This document shows positions 1,745-24,448 of a stretch of DNA of 26,274 nucleotides, piece after piece. The notes under the pieces were generated by a model, which saw nothing but the letters and a program-made list of their open reading frames with translations, was not told where the DNA came from and ran no database searches. The stretch comes from a virus. The stretch spans positions 1 to 26,274 of IMG/VR virus record IMGVR_UViG_3300048033_000114; one strand, written 5' to 3'. Made by a program: the position numbers and the translations under genes. The number at the start of each line of letters is the position of its first letter. Position 1 is the stretch's first letter.

Positions 1745-2962
1745 ATGACCAGAGCTTTGCTTAAATCCCTACTCAGCCACAGTTTCTACCAAGATAATCG
1801 CCCCCGATTAAGGGAATCGATCTTCTCTACAGATGATGCTGAAGCCTATCGGTTGATTGCCAAGGGCCACGATAAATACGAGCATGATCTGTCAGCACAA
1901 GACATTCTATCGTTATGGTCGTTGGACAACCCTGTAGCTACTTCTGCAGAGCGTGAGGACTTCATAGACGTACTAGAGGATATAAAGCTGCACGAACCTA
2001 TCTCACAAGACATAGCTAAAGATACCATTGAAGGTCTTTGGCAGCGTGAGATTGGACGGGATGTAGCTAACCTAGGCCTATACATCAACGAAGGTAATCT
2101 AGACGGCTGGGAGAAGCTGCAATCACTTATGCTGCGTGTGGATGAAGGGTTCATGCCAGACGACTTTGGTGACCCTACAACAGATGATCTATACCAGCTA
2201 CTTGCGGAAACCTCAGATGACGCACGTTGGAAATTTAATATCGAAACACTATCACGTAGAGTGTATGGTATCGGTCCTGCTGAATTTGGTATTGTGTTTG
2301 CTAGACCAGAAACAGGCAAGTCTGCCTTTGTCGTAAGTATATGCACAGGCCCAGGTGGTTTCTGTTCCCAAGGTGCTAAGGTTCTATACTTGGGTAATGA
2401 GGAAGCTACACGTCGTACAAAACTACGTGCTATACAAGCATGGACAGGTATGACTCGTGAGGAAATAGCCAATAATCCTGATGTAGCAGAGACACGATAC
2501 CTTGCTATACGTGACCGTCTAGTTATGAAAGATGCTCAAGAATGGGATATGGCTAAGGTTGATGCCTACTGTAAGAAGGTTAAGCCTGACGTGCTAATCA
2601 TTGACCAGTTGGACAAAACCAATATCTCTGGCACGTTTGGTGCTACCCATGAGAAATTGCGTGAGGTATATCGTCAGGCCCGTGAACTAGCCAAGAGACA
2701 TGAGTGCGCCTTACTGGGTGTATCACAAGCATCTGCAGAGGCTGAAGGGCGTACACGCCTAGACTTTAGTATGATGGATGGCAGTAAAACAGGTAAGGCA
2801 GCAGAGGCTGACTTGATCCTTGGTATTGGTAGACACTCAGGGGAAGATGATGATGGCCCTGATACCACTCGCTTTATCTCTGTAAGTAAGAACAAGCTAT
2901 CTGGCTGGCACGGAAATGTAATCTGCAACATCGAGCCAGAGGTATCTCGTTATGTTGAGTAA
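1745..2962 (+). CDS. Replicative DNA helicase (DnaB / T7 gp4 helicase-half type)
   Basis: A 405-residue RecA-fold hexameric helicase that would unwind DNA at the phage fork. The N-terminal ~170 residues are helical. The core has Walker A ARPETGKS (186-193), an NEE-containing strand (GNEEATRRT, about 217-225), Walker B VLIIDQLD (283-290), a sensor-like LLGVSQAS (323-330) and a basic SVSKNK segment near the end (379-384). ATG at 1745 follows TGAGGA with good spacing. The gene overlaps polA by 11 nt, giving a coupled helicase-polymerase unit. It ends with EVSRYVE, without the long acidic tail of T7 gp4. Confidence 0.87.
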   Translation: MTRALLKSLLSHSFYQDNRPRLRESIFSTDDAEAYRLIAKGHDKYEHDLSAQDILSLWSLDNPVATSAEREDFIDVLEDIKLHEPISQDIAKDTIEGLWQREIGRDVANLGLYINEGNLDGWEKLQSLMLRVDEGFMPDDFGDPTTDDLYQLLAETSDDARWKFNIETLSRRVYGIGPAEFGIVFARPETGKSAFVVSICTGPGGFCSQGAKVLYLGNEEATRRTKLRAIQAWTGMTREEIANNPDVAETRYLAIRDRLVMKDAQEWDMAKVDAYCKKVKPDVLIIDQLDKTNISGTFGATHEKLREVYRQARELAKRHECALLGVSQASAEAEGRTRLDFSMMDGSKTGKAAEADLILGIGRHSGEDDDGPDTTRFISVSKNKLSGWHGNVICNIEPEVSRYVE

Positions 2963-5057
2963 AGTGTTAGGTGTAGACCTAGAAACTACCGTAGATGACT
3001 TAGATGGTAAAATAGATAACAGCCCATTCAACCCTAAAAACAAATGTGTCTCTGCACACTTTGCATGGCTAGGTGGTGAGGTAAGCCACCTTGTATTTAA
3101 CCATAACGAGAAGGATGTACCTGACAGTACAGAGCTACTTCGCAAAGCAATTGCTGAAGCGGATGTGATCGTTGCACACAACGCTAAGTTTGATGTCCTT
3201 TGGCTACTTGAAATGGGGTTTGAGATTGATTGTGACGTGTATTGCACAATGATCGGAGAATACATTCTATCTAAGGGACAACGACAAGAGTTAGGTCTCA
3301 AGGCTACAGCCATACGCCGTGACGTTACTCGCAAGAAGTCCGACCTAGTGGATGATCTGTTTAAGAGTGGTACTGGTTTTGAAGCCATGCCCTTAGATAC
3401 TGTAATTGAGTATGCTGAAGCTGATGTCATTGCTTGCCTTGAAATATACGAGCAGCAGAAGGAAGAGTTTGCTCTAGAGTATAACGAAAGCCTAATTAGC
3501 GTATCTACCCTGATGAACGAAATGCTAATGTTCCTTGTGGAGATTGAGCGCAACGGCATTAAAGTAGATCTAGATGTGCTGTCAAAAATCAAGGAGCAGT
3601 TTCTAGAAGAACAGCAGACCTTAAAGAAGCGTCTTAGCGAAATTCTCGAAGATATCATGGGAGATACCCCAATCAACCTAAACTCTGGTGCAGATATGTC
3701 TAAGGCAGTGTATAGCCGCAAGGTTATTAACCGCCACCTACACCAGCAAGTATGGAATATTGGTGTTGGTCCTACTGGTAAGCCACTGTATCCGCCTCGT
3801 ATGAAACCTGCTGAGTTTGCACGTTCTGTTAGATCCACTACAGAGGTGGTTAACCGTACACATGCTATATGCTGCAATACCTGTGATGGGCGTGGTAAGG
3901 TACGCAAGATAAAGAAGGATGGTGTACCCTACAAAAACCTATCTAAGTGTGAAAGCTGTGACGGTTTAGGTGCTTTCTTTCAGGACACAGGTGTAGTGGC
4001 AGGTCTTAGACTTAACCCAGAGACACCTGCAGACGCATCTATCAATGGCTTTAAGACGGACAAGGTTACGTTGAAGCGTTTGATCAAGCAGGCACGTAGA
4101 AAGGGCAACCTCATAGCAGAGGAGTTCCTTACTAAGAGTAGCCGACTAAATGCAGTAAACACGTACCTAGATAGTTTCGTTAAAGGTATCGAAACATGGA
4201 CACGTTCTGATGGTATTCTACACAGTAACTTTAATCAGTGCATCACTGCTACTGGGCGTCTATCTTCGTCCAACCCTAACTTCCAAAACCAACCAAAGCG
4301 AGGCTTCCCTGTCCGTAAGGCTGCAGTATCTAGGTTTGAAAACGGAGAAATTTTGGAGGCGGATTATGCAGCGCTTGAGTGGCGTGTTGCGGCGGAACTA
4401 AGCCGTGATCCACAGGCTATTGAGGACATTGTATCAGGTAAGGATGCCCATAAGCAGACTGCGTGTATTATTAATCAATGTGAGCCTGAAGATGTTACCA
4501 AGGATATGAGGCAAGCGGCCAAGGCCTATTCGTTCGCACCCCTTTTTGGGGGTCAAGGAAATGGAGAAGCTGAACACGTCCGTAAGTACTTCTCTGAGTT
4601 CTTTGTGATATATAGCGGCCTTGGTGAGTGGCATAAGCGACTTATGGACGGTGTGTTAAAGAATGGAATTGTCCAAACACCGTCAGGTCGTCAATACTTC
4701 TGGCCCAATGCCCGTAGAATGCGCAACGGACGGATATCTAATGCTACTCAGGTGGTTAACTACCCCGTACAGGGCTTCAGTACAGGTTGTATAGTTCCCC
4801 TTGCCTGTATCCGAGCATATAGACTGTTCAAGAAGGCTAATCTGCGCTCTAAGCTAATCCTGACTGTACACGACTCTATCGTGATAGATTGTGCGCCTGG
4901 AGAACTTCCACCAATCAAAAAGATACTTGTTGAGGCTATGCAGGATGTGACTGAAGAGATCAAAAGTCGCTGGGGATATGAGTTCTGTATTCCCCTACCT
5001 ATTGAGATCAGCACAGGTAAAAATTGGCTGGACCAAGACGAAATTCCACTTGAATAA
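2952..5057 (+). CDS. polA: Family A DNA polymerase with 3'-5' exonuclease and a DnaJ-like zinc-ribbon insertion
   Basis: A 701-residue replicative polymerase. Exonuclease motifs: VDLET (D9, E11), AHNAKFD (N77, D81) and YAEAD (Y154, D158). Polymerase motif A is DYAALEWR (D471, E476), motif B RQAAKAYSFAPLFGG (R520, K524) and motif C TVHDS (H640, D641). Between the thumb segment INLNSG (241-246) and TDKVTLKRL (369-377) lies an insertion with two CxxCxGxG motifs (C308/C311 and C333/C336), as in the DnaJ central domain. T7 polymerase carries its thioredoxin-binding loop at about this place. I recall a partial DnaJ domain being reported in the HMO-2011 polymerase. Motif B has Phe at the E. coli Phe762 position (F528) and Phe at the usually invariant Tyr766 position (F532). 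Confidence 0.92.
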   Translation: MLSKVLGVDLETTVDDLDGKIDNSPFNPKNKCVSAHFAWLGGEVSHLVFNHNEKDVPDSTELLRKAIAEADVIVAHNAKFDVLWLLEMGFEIDCDVYCTMIGEYILSKGQRQELGLKATAIRRDVTRKKSDLVDDLFKSGTGFEAMPLDTVIEYAEADVIACLEIYEQQKEEFALEYNESLISVSTLMNEMLMFLVEIERNGIKVDLDVLSKIKEQFLEEQQTLKKRLSEILEDIMGDTPINLNSGADMSKAVYSRKVINRHLHQQVWNIGVGPTGKPLYPPRMKPAEFARSVRSTTEVVNRTHAICCNTCDGRGKVRKIKKDGVPYKNLSKCESCDGLGAFFQDTGVVAGLRLNPETPADASINGFKTDKVTLKRLIKQARRKGNLIAEEFLTKSSRLNAVNTYLDSFVKGIETWTRSDGILHSNFNQCITATGRLSSSNPNFQNQPKRGFPVRKAAVSRFENGEILEADYAALEWRVAAELSRDPQAIEDIVSGKDAHKQTACIINQCEPEDVTKDMRQAAKAYSFAPLFGGQGNGEAEHVRKYFSEFFVIYSGLGEWHKRLMDGVLKNGIVQTPSGRQYFWPNARRMRNGRISNATQVVNYPVQGFSTGCIVPLACIRAYRLFKKANLRSKLILTVHDSIVIDCAPGELPPIKKILVEAMQDVTEEIKSRWGYEFCIPLPIEISTGKNWLDQDEIPLE

Positions 5058-5107: not shown

Positions 5108-5941
5108 ATGAGCGATCTACAATTAATCGAAGGTAAAAACATTGACGCACTAGCAGGAATGCTAGGTGCAGCAGTCAGTGGGGGCGGTGATACAAGCCGC
5201 ATGCCTGAATTAAAAATTAACAGCCAAGTAGAAGATGATGCAGGAAACTTACTTCCTCGTGGAGAGTTCTACATCAAAGGTATGGAGCAGCAGGTATACT
5301 CCTCTACTGTTAAATTTCGTCCACTTGCACACCACTATCAGTGGTTGCATTACGACCCTGAAGCTAACAAGCTGGTAAACAAAACCCGACTTGTTGCAAG
5401 TTTCCGTGAGGAAGCTCGTGATATCAAAGGTGGTATCAAGTGTGGGAAACCTTCCTACAAAGCAATGCAAGACCTGCCACAGGAAGAACGTGATAAATAC
5501 AAAGATATCACTCTTTTCCGACAGGTACGTGGACTTGTGTCGTATACAGGAAAGACTGTAAGCGGCGAGGAAGTTAAAATAAAAGACCAGCCTGTAATCT
5601 TGATGTTGAAAGGCTCAAACTATGCAGCTTTTGAAGACGATTACATCAAAACACTATCTCGTGGTCAGAACCTATTCGACTACTATGTAGAACTAACTAC
5701 AGAAAAACATAAGAACGGGTCTGTGACGTGGTACACTTTTGTCTACGGTAAAAAGGATGGTCCTCTATCTGTAGATCAGACTACTTACGATACTATGGTA
5801 CACATTGCCGAAATTATCTCGAAAGAGAATAAGAAGGTGGATGATGCCTACTTCAATGCCGCTCGTGAAGATGCGCTAGATGCTACAGCATTTGATGCTT
5901 TAGGTGATAGCCTTGACGACGACTTTGATGACGTAGCATGA
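5108..5941 (+). CDS. Probable single-stranded DNA-binding protein (T7 gp2.5-like role)
   Basis: A 277-residue protein placed right after the polymerase. It has a beta-rich centre (about residues 50-230) with many aromatic and basic residues and a strongly acidic C-terminal tail (GDSLDDDFDDVA). Phage and bacterial SSBs end in such acidic, Phe-containing tails, which contact polymerase and helicase. Size, tail and location fit a gp2.5-type or recombination-associated ssDNA-binding protein; the OB-fold itself cannot be proved by eye. It has its own ribosome site and a likely promoter at 5059. It overlaps the nuclease gene by ATGA, tying it to DNA processing. Confidence 0.6.
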   Translation: MSDLQLIEGKNIDALAGMLGAAVSGGGDTSRMPELKINSQVEDDAGNLLPRGEFYIKGMEQQVYSSTVKFRPLAHHYQWLHYDPEANKLVNKTRLVASFREEARDIKGGIKCGKPSYKAMQDLPQEERDKYKDITLFRQVRGLVSYTGKTVSGEEVKIKDQPVILMLKGSNYAAFEDDYIKTLSRGQNLFDYYVELTTEKHKNGSVTWYTFVYGKKDGPLSVDQTTYDTMVHIAEIISKENKKVDDAYFNAAREDALDATAFDALGDSLDDDFDDVA

Positions 5942-6804
5942 GCTTACAGGATCAAATACATGAGGTCTTAGACCGTCTGTCTAACAATGAAAGCCAGGAT
6001 CTGGACATTGAAGACAGTTGGATCGAAGAGGCAGGCGAGGCGTTTAAGGATGCGCTTCGTCGCCAATTCACTCGGAGAGAGGATGATTTCCGTCTCCGTA
6101 TGTCGAATATTGGCAGGCCTCTTTGCCAGCTTCAGATGGCTAAACAAGGTGCTAAACAAGAGCGCAAAGACTATAACTTCATTATGCGAATGCTGCACGG
6201 TGATGCGATTGAATGTATCATGGATGTGGTATTAAAGATTGCCAAAGCCAACATTACTGGTGGCAAATCTAAGGTAGAGTTTGACCTAGGTGGTAATATT
6301 ATCAAGGGTGAAGATGACGTTGAGATCGACAACAAGGTCTACGACATTAAATCAGCTTCGCCATTTGCCTTTGAGCATAAATGGAAGAAAGGTCTTACTG
6401 CCTTAAAAGAGAACGATGACTTTGGCTACGTTGGTCAATTGATTGGTTATTCTGATGGGCAGGATCTGGAAACAGGCGGATGGATTGTTGTTTGCAAAAG
6501 CTCAGGACAGGTAGTTGTAATGGATGCCACTTTCTCTGATGAAGAGAAATCAGGCATAAAAGCTGAATTAGAAATGAAGGCCAATGCAATCAAAGAAGAT
6601 TGGGCTTTTAAAAGATGCTTTGAACCCGTGGACGACTTCTTTAATCGGAAGTTCACAGGATCCAAAAAGCTACCTATGTCTTGTAACTTCTGTGACTATA
6701 AGCAGTCATGTTGGCCTAATGCTAAATTGCTCCCACAGCCCATGTCTAAGGCCAAGGAACCTAGAAAGAACTGGTATGTATCGTACCAAGGAAAGGATCT
6801 TTAG
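5938..6804 (+). CDS. PD-(D/E)XK exonuclease with Cas4/AddB-type Fe-S cysteines
   Basis: A 288-residue nuclease, probably resecting or degrading DNA for recombination or nucleotide recycling. It shows RMLHGDAIE (H87), GEDDVEID, the catalytic strand YDIKSAS (D136-x-K138) and the QLIGY motif (Q167, Y171) of RecB/Cas4-type nucleases. One Cys at 63 plus C249-x2-C252-x5-C258 matches the one-plus-three cysteine layout that binds a 4Fe-4S cluster in Cas4, AddB and Dna2. No CRISPR array or other cas gene is present, so a phage replication/recombination role fits. ATGA overlap with the SSB gene and 1-nt overlap with the next gene show a coupled unit. Confidence 0.75.
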   Translation: MSLQDQIHEVLDRLSNNESQDLDIEDSWIEEAGEAFKDALRRQFTRREDDFRLRMSNIGRPLCQLQMAKQGAKQERKDYNFIMRMLHGDAIECIMDVVLKIAKANITGGKSKVEFDLGGNIIKGEDDVEIDNKVYDIKSASPFAFEHKWKKGLTALKENDDFGYVGQLIGYSDGQDLETGGWIVVCKSSGQVVVMDATFSDEEKSGIKAELEMKANAIKEDWAFKRCFEPVDDFFNRKFTGSKKLPMSCNFCDYKQSCWPNAKLLPQPMSKAKEPRKNWYVSYQGKDL

Positions 6805-7154
6805 TGGCGATAAAAACGTCCTCTGCGAAAGCCAAGGGCAGGCGTCATCAGCAGTGGGTTAGAGATCAAATACTAGAACTGTTTCCCAAATTGGAACCAG
6901 ATGACGTTCGATCAACTAGTATGGGCGCAGGTGGAGAGGACGTACAACTCTCCCCTGCGGCTAGGAAACTCTTCCCCTACTCTGTGGAGTGTAAGGCATT
7001 TAAATCCTTCGCAATCTACAAGGTGATGGAGCAGGCGAAAGACAACTGCCCAAAGGGTGCTGAACCCCTATCCATAATAAAAGCAGACAGGCAGAAACCG
7101 CTGGCTGTCGTAGATGCAGAATTTTTCTTCAAACTTGTAGGGAAACAGAAATGA
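6804..7154 (+). CDS. Small PD-(D/E)XK-like nuclease, Holliday-junction-resolvase-like
   Basis: A 116-residue protein starting at GTG 6804, overlapping the preceding TAG by one base. A basic N-terminus (KAKGRRHQQWVRDQILE) precedes DVRSTSMGAGGEDVQLS and YSVECKAFKSFAIYKV. GEDV followed by SVECK resembles the D...ExK centre of small PD-(D/E)XK endonucleases (D44 or D51, E67-x-K69 by rough count). Phage resolvases of about this size process branched DNA before packaging, the T7 gp3 role, and the position after SSB and exonuclease matches that order. The specific activity is inference. ATGA overlap with the next gene. Confidence 0.55.
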   Translation: MAIKTSSAKAKGRRHQQWVRDQILELFPKLEPDDVRSTSMGAGGEDVQLSPAARKLFPYSVECKAFKSFAIYKVMEQAKDNCPKGAEPLSIIKADRQKPLAVVDAEFFFKLVGKQK

Positions 7155-24025: not shown

Positions 24026-24448
24026 TTAGAACTCCTTAGTGTGTATTTTGTCTGGGGATTTAAACCGCCGCCAATTGGCAGGAACTCGTCGTCCTAATTC
24101 GGTTTGAGAATATTTCATCATGCCTCGCATGACTTTTGTTGTGTGACCAAACGGTGCTATGAAATCTATGCCCCAAAGCTGATATTGATCGTCTATAATG
24201 TCAGGTCGTGACCAGACCTTTTCATCTGGCATCCACCTCTCTGACAGGAAGTCTTCAGCCTCTTCCGTAGTAAACCAAGCCCAAGAAACAAACCCAATGG
24301 GTTGATCTCCGTCATAAAACAGTCGGGCTTTTTTATAGATTAAAGGGAAAAGGCAGTAGTTGTTAAACTCTACCAGAGTGTATAGCCTATGATCGTCGGA
24401 TTGATTGAACAGATATAGGCAATCTAGAACAGTGTTTCTGCTCTTCAT
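24026..24448 (-). CDS. Toxin-activating lysine acyltransferase (HlyC/RTX-acyltransferase family)
   Basis: A 140-residue protein that matches HlyC by eye through most of its length. The pattern LYLFNQSDDHRLYTL aligns with the HlyC region holding catalytic His23 (here H20); PIGFVSWAWF aligns with PVAYCSWANL; LWGIDFIAPFG aligns with WFIDWIAPFG, whose Asp92 is catalytic (here D95). HlyC moves a fatty acyl group from acyl-ACP to internal lysines of a pro-toxin. No RTX toxin (no GGxGxD repeats) is in the window, so the substrate is unknown. Neighbours are fibre genes, suggesting acylation of a virion protein or a host protein. HlyC is about 170 residues; this one lacks the C-terminal extension. AGGTGAG precedes ATG. 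Confidence 0.82.
   Translation of the reverse strand: MKSRNTVLDCLYLFNQSDDHRLYTLVEFNNYCLFPLIYKKARLFYDGDQPIGFVSWAWFTTEEAEDFLSERWMPDEKVWSRPDIIDDQYQLWGIDFIAPFGHTTKVMRGMMKYSQTELGRRVPANWRRFKSPDKIHTKEF

Follow-up and report, generated by a model that had tools for sequence, protein, structure and literature searches.

Phages of the HMO-2011 type are among the dominant marine phages. The partial DnaJ domain in their family A DNA polymerase, an already known hallmark of the group, was described in earlier publications (PMC9038755, PMC6918029), and the annotation of the HMO-2011 record itself carries PF00684. A DnaJ-type motif was required in PMC9038755 for a metagenomic genome to be counted as HMO-2011-type, so that the universality of the motif in that study is partly a matter of definition. 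Neither "thumb" nor "thioredoxin" appears as a word in the text of PMC9038755, and no test of the role of this polymerase hallmark was described in the papers found. Among other family A enzymes, thumb insertions of T7 and human mitochondrial polymerases recruit processivity factors, and lysine-rich thumb insertions of plant organellar polymerases have been proposed to clamp DNA (PMC7699545). The present analysis adds to the published domain a model of a stalk and hairpin, an assignment to a particular thumb loop, a likeness to modules 2-3 of DnaJ, and a set of conserved basic residues with a conserved aromatic position.

The DNA analysed here (the window) is a virus fragment of 26,274 bases that carries the following polymerase gene.

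2952..5057, plus strand: PolA, a family A DNA polymerase of the HMO-2011 type with exonuclease and polymerase domains (701 aa; Pfam DNA_pol_A 6.6e-57, exo1 2e-8)

The exonuclease domain is of the 3'-5' type, and Foldseek assigned the model of the whole protein to the Pol I family. Upstream of PolA are a primase-like gene (612-1430) and then a DnaB-like helicase gene (1745-2962). PolA was 67% identical to the polymerase of CRP-235, 60% to that of CRP-3 and 38% to that of HMO-2011, the first two being the nearest isolates, and it clustered in a tree with known HMO-2011-type members, the helicase and primase genes adjoining. The partial DnaJ domain by which the type is recognised, with two CxxCxGxG motifs between the exonuclease and polymerase domains, was present, whereas capsid and TerL genes of the type were either unrecognised in the 26 kb fragment or absent from it. 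The relation to the HMO-2011 polymerase that the original prediction had pointed to was supported, the domain being a published one, and the window virus is placed by its sequence as a new uncultured HMO-2011-type member near CRP-235 and CRP-3. At the other end of the window, a 140-aa ORF (24026-24448, minus strand) had a Pfam match (E 4.8e-14) to HlyC-family acyltransferases; on one side of it is a gene resembling those for tail fibres and on the other are marine phage structural genes.

Features of the PolA thumb were delineated as follows.

3570..3659, plus strand: thumb helix H (residues 207-236), from AF2/DSSP and alignment to E. coli Pol I
3675..3713, plus strand: N-x-x-S motif and helix H1 (residues 242-254), a landmark shared with T7 (N335-P-S-S) and E. 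coli (N579-L-S-S), from alignments and AF2
3714..4061, plus strand: whole thumb insertion (residues 255-370), in place of about 24 residues of E. coli Pol I (590-613), from alignments
3852..3872, plus strand: predicted stalk strand 1 (residues 301-307), with residue 302 basic in 99% of relatives, from AF2 and conservation
3873..3896, plus strand: first CxxCxGxG motif, CNTCDGRG (308-315; C308, C311, G313, G315), from sequence, with invariant cysteines
3897..3947, plus strand: basic inter-motif hairpin (residues 316-332), with K319, K321, K322 and K332 mostly basic, G324 invariant and 327 aromatic, from conservation and charge
3948..3971, plus strand: second CxxCxGxG motif, CESCDGLG (333-340; C333, C336, G338, G340), from sequence and conservation
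3972..3998, plus strand: predicted stalk strand 2 (residues 341-349), from AF2
4062..4199, plus strand: thumb helices after the insertion (residues 371-384 and 387-416), from AF2 and alignment

The two CxxCxGxG motifs had been predicted at C308/C311 and C333/C336, and this numbering was exact in the ORF translation, the cysteine codons lying at nt 3873-3875 (C308), 3882-3884 (C311), 3948-3950 (C333) and 3957-3959 (C336). Relatives were recruited by polymerase motifs without use of the cysteines, which avoids a circular estimate of conservation. All four cysteines were kept in 181 of 181 distinct thumbs by a strict count and in 201 of 201 readable thumbs by a profile-based count; rows without a Cys pair in the latter were incomplete contigs, sequences outside the search slice or outgroups, with 0 exceptions of the HMO type. 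The doubt whether the cysteines are conserved in homologues was thus answered by CxxC...CxxC in 201/201 distinct relatives. Among 200,000 shuffles of PolA, one CxxCxGxG occurred in 271 and two in 0, and this result, together with the four cysteines in 201/201 relatives, excludes a chance origin of the paired motifs. At the four cysteine codons TGT and TGC swapped freely among relatives, which indicates that the residue and not the DNA is conserved.

Conservation in the insertion extended beyond the cysteines. Thus, among 194 distinct insertion fragments, G313, G324, G340 and G351 were invariant, position 327 was always F, Y or W, and lysine or arginine occurred at position 302 in 99%, at 319 in 97%, at 321 in 96%, at 332 in 84% and at 322 in 81%. 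G338 was replaced by T, A or S in some relatives. The net charge of the stretch from motif to motif was positive in 179/181. The motif spacing was 25 residues except in a few relatives with a longer and more basic hairpin, where it was 37; at loci L005, L011, L013, L015, L016 and L022 the hairpin tip held 12 additional residues (spacing 37) and was rich in lysine and arginine. In favour of a metal that merely stabilises a long thumb insertion, with no contact role, the cysteines and glycines were the most conserved residues, other parts of the insertion varied and the hairpin was of variable length. However, the basic residues at 302, 319 and 321 and the aromatic residue at 327 were conserved nearly as well as the glycines and would be unneeded by a pure staple, and we regard this explanation as unlikely.

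An AF2 model was built from 36 relatives for the protein alone, without metal or DNA, and had a mean pLDDT of 91.3, with values of 86-92 over the motif region (86 when the insertion was modelled alone). The order of elements in the model was a helix at 207-236, a helix at 246-254, a partly helical stretch, a strand at 301-307, the cysteine hairpin, a strand at 341-349 and helices at 371-384 and 387-416. The insertion is thus modelled as a two-stranded stalk with a DnaJ-type hairpin at its end. Its placement between thumb helices, as originally proposed, was based on alignment to E. coli Pol I and on the order of AF2 elements, which agreed. By local as well as profile alignment, I-N242-L-N-S of the window PolA corresponded to F578-N-L-S-S of E. 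coli Pol I, and the insertion covered residues 590-613 of the latter (LFEKQGIKPLKKTPGGAPSTSEEV), which is reportedly the segment deleted in the thumb truncation considered below.

The original prediction had equated the insertion with the site of the thioredoxin-binding segment of T7 DNA polymerase, residues 258-334. Alignment of T7 N335-P-S-S with E. coli N579-L-S-S scored 110, as opposed to a maximum of 42 for shuffles, and placed residues 258-334 before this landmark, whereas the insertion follows N242-L-N-S and therefore occupies the adjacent loop; a T7-equivalent site was ruled out by alignment. Since only MGDTPI lies between helix H and N242 in the window PolA, there is no room for a domain of the T7 type, and the insertion of about 76 residues between thumb helices H and H1 that marks that type was lacking. 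MAFFT and hhalign with T7 alone did put the T7 domain onto the insertion, a misplacement (hhalign probability 16%), for which reason the T7 mapping relies on the match between N335-P-S-S and E. coli and on the 258-334 boundaries. An analogue of the T7 domain that binds host thioredoxin would lie in the same region of the thumb tip, as the insertion does, but the different loop, the lack of a T7-type segment or of room for one, and the lack of any likeness to the T7 thioredoxin-binding segment in the alignment make this reading very unlikely, as is binding of the thioredoxin-like factor that had been suggested. None of the genes in the scanned part of the window was recognised as coding for thioredoxin, though one supplied by the host is conceivable.

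The resemblance to DnaJ was evident from profile comparisons. Window PolA alone scored 20.3 bits against PF00684, under the Pfam cut-off of 32.7, over positions 13-56 of 65. Across members, PF00684 matched 36/36 (best 1.5e-6), Anti-TRAP (PF15777) 12/36 and BSD2 2/36. DnaJ and UvrA zinc modules came out on top in a Foldseek search with the insertion alone, all matches being non-significant (E 0.24-1.4). The insertion profile matched the cysteine domain of E. coli DnaJ (1exk) with an E value of 3.1e-5, the alignment falling on motifs two and three of that domain. In DnaJ these two CxxCxGxG motifs together make one zinc site, which helps DnaJ act with DnaK. The description as a DnaJ-like zinc ribbon was borne out to the extent that a DnaJ-like hairpin of zinc type is backed by the 1exk match and by PF00684 in 36/36. 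DnaJ (Hsp40) proper has a J domain with HPD and four CxxCxGxG motifs; HPD was absent from the whole PolA protein, and the motifs were two, not four. As judged from these features, the insertion is a hairpin of the DnaJ type that lacks a J domain and has no more than one metal site.

The four cysteines most likely bind one zinc. By themselves they leave the metal unspecified, and an iron-sulfur cluster or disulfides could be imagined in its stead, but CxxCxGxG pairs in DnaJ and Anti-TRAP bind zinc (PMC2896485) and the profile matches were to zinc proteins, so that such alternatives appear highly improbable. Recruitment of chaperones such as DnaK to the replisome of the phage, much as DnaJ takes part in the replication of lambda, was raised earlier (PMC9038755) and would suit the resemblance to DnaJ modules 2-3. 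However, HPD is missing, the cysteine domain is partial (about half, 13-56 of 65), and the same type of fold occurs in proteins without a J domain, e.g., Anti-TRAP and BSD2; the position at the thumb tip, adjoining the T7 thioredoxin site without coinciding with it, also argues against recruitment of chaperones. The suggestion that the insertion binds a host chaperone is consequently considered very unlikely.

The reading we prefer, with a probability of about 0.5, is that the insertion is a self-contained, metal-stabilised DNA grip at the thumb tip that raises processivity. Strands 301-307 and 341-349 would form a stalk, at the end of which the four cysteines would hold one metal, most likely zinc, with the basic hairpin (about 316-332) projecting between the cysteine pairs. 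The insertion stands where E. coli Pol I has residues 590-613, a loop at the tip that is in contact with duplex DNA, and the hairpin would probably grip the primer-template behind the active site, such that the enzyme would need neither a separate clamp nor thioredoxin to stay on DNA. A role in processivity would fit this site: E. coli Pol I with a truncated thumb, as described in PMC10061031 citing Minnick 1996, is active with loss of processivity and fidelity. Placement at the thumb tip also makes of the "partial DnaJ domain" something that can be tested directly on the enzyme. The motifs, their conservation and position, the conserved basic residues and the confinement to one group of phages come from the sequences, and the stalk and hairpin from the model, whereas zinc, DNA contact and processivity are inferred. 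Against a DNA grip, an acidic tail of some protein is an equally good ligand for the basic surface, and HMO-2011-type phages may have another, unrecognised processivity factor.

The main rival to the DNA grip is a docking platform, for which the gene after PolA provides a candidate partner.

5108..5941, plus strand: gene after PolA (277 aa) with the acidic C-terminal tail DSLDDDFDDVA, a candidate partner and possibly an SSB, from tail charge and alignment

In this rival explanation, the basic hairpin would bind the acidic tail of a replication partner, for example the 5108-5941 protein or a primase/helicase, in the way that the T7 domain binds the T7 SSB tail. The 5108-5941 protein is conserved and so is its acidic tail, which has a mean net charge of -8.8 over 25 residues in 141 relatives. 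The tail of T7 SSB binds the thioredoxin-binding domain of T7 polymerase (PMC7699545), and a polymerase-SSB pair of a mobile element is predicted to meet at the thumb tip (PMC10061031). However, the 5108-5941 protein was not recognisable as an SSB, having no PDB match and no informative PHROG match, and SSB identity was set aside as unsupported by these searches; the window helicase lacked an acidic tail. Docking is viewed as less likely than a DNA grip, and the two may hold together. Also after PolA on the plus strand are a Cas4-type exonuclease-like gene (5938-6804, PHROG 4.3e-23) and a RusA-like resolvase gene (6804-7154, PHROG 7.8e-16).

In a survey of 50,697 phage records, the insertion was noted only in HMO-2011-type isolates (12 records). 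The closest polymerases without the zinc insertion were those of ICP2, VP41s3, MEP402, QDWS535, K437b, H4/4 and Aristophanes, which had other insertions at the same point and no cysteine pairs. Homology of the zinc hairpin to a K-G-x-x-x-G-x-x-K stretch in these zinc-less relatives was considered and dropped because L-INS-i and hhalign positioned the stretch differently. In a tree with the insertion columns the zinc-type group formed one side of a branch (support 96/87), and the same split appeared, with weak support (46), without these columns; a single origin of the zinc-type insertion is plausible from these sequence comparisons. The polymerase of MEP402, ICP2_2013_A_Haiti, QDWS535 and VP41s3 (L083, L084, L086 and L087) was split in two genes shortly after TGRLSSSxPNxQN, the halves being exonuclease-thumb and palm-fingers, with an extra ORF between them in some. 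Searches of genome bins yielded phage-type marine contigs and two ordinary Clostridia Pol I. HMO-type polymerases (L272, L273, L275, L276 and L278) were on contigs in Flavobacteriales, Neomarinimicrobiota and Rhodobiaceae bins, and because two such contigs were shared by a Flavobacteriales bin and a Neomarinimicrobiota bin, the contigs appear to be of phage origin and to have been sorted into bacterial bins.

Compared with known systems, the window PolA shows no essential difference from HMO-2011-type polymerases (HMO-2011, CRP-1/2/3, CRP-235, HTVC033P), with which it shares gene order, both CxxCxGxG motifs and the insertion site at identities of 34-67%. ICP2, MEP402, QDWS535, H4/4 and K437b likewise have a thumb insertion beyond the N-x-S landmark and the accompanying helix, but one without CxxC pairs, of other sequence and of varying length. 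With modules 2-3 of the E. coli DnaJ cysteine-rich domain the insertion shares two CxxCxGxG motifs and a hairpin between them, whereas it has two such motifs and not four, lacks a J domain and is built into a polymerase. Anti-TRAP, BSD2 and UvrA modules are also DnaJ-like zinc hairpins outside DnaJ, although these proteins are unrelated to PolA and the resemblance is limited to the hairpin. Plant organellar polymerases share a lysine-rich thumb insertion and a proposed DNA clamp but have no zinc motif and are unrelated in the sequence concerned. T7 DNA polymerase is comparable as a phage family A enzyme with a large thumb insertion, while its thioredoxin-binding domain precedes the N-x-x-S helix, lacks cysteine pairs and requires thioredoxin. 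A broader proposal, which we hold tentatively and at less than even confidence, is that HMO-2011-type phages evolved once, at the site of E. coli 590-613, a metal-organised and self-contained thumb-tip grip distinct from both the T7 thioredoxin domain and sliding clamps.
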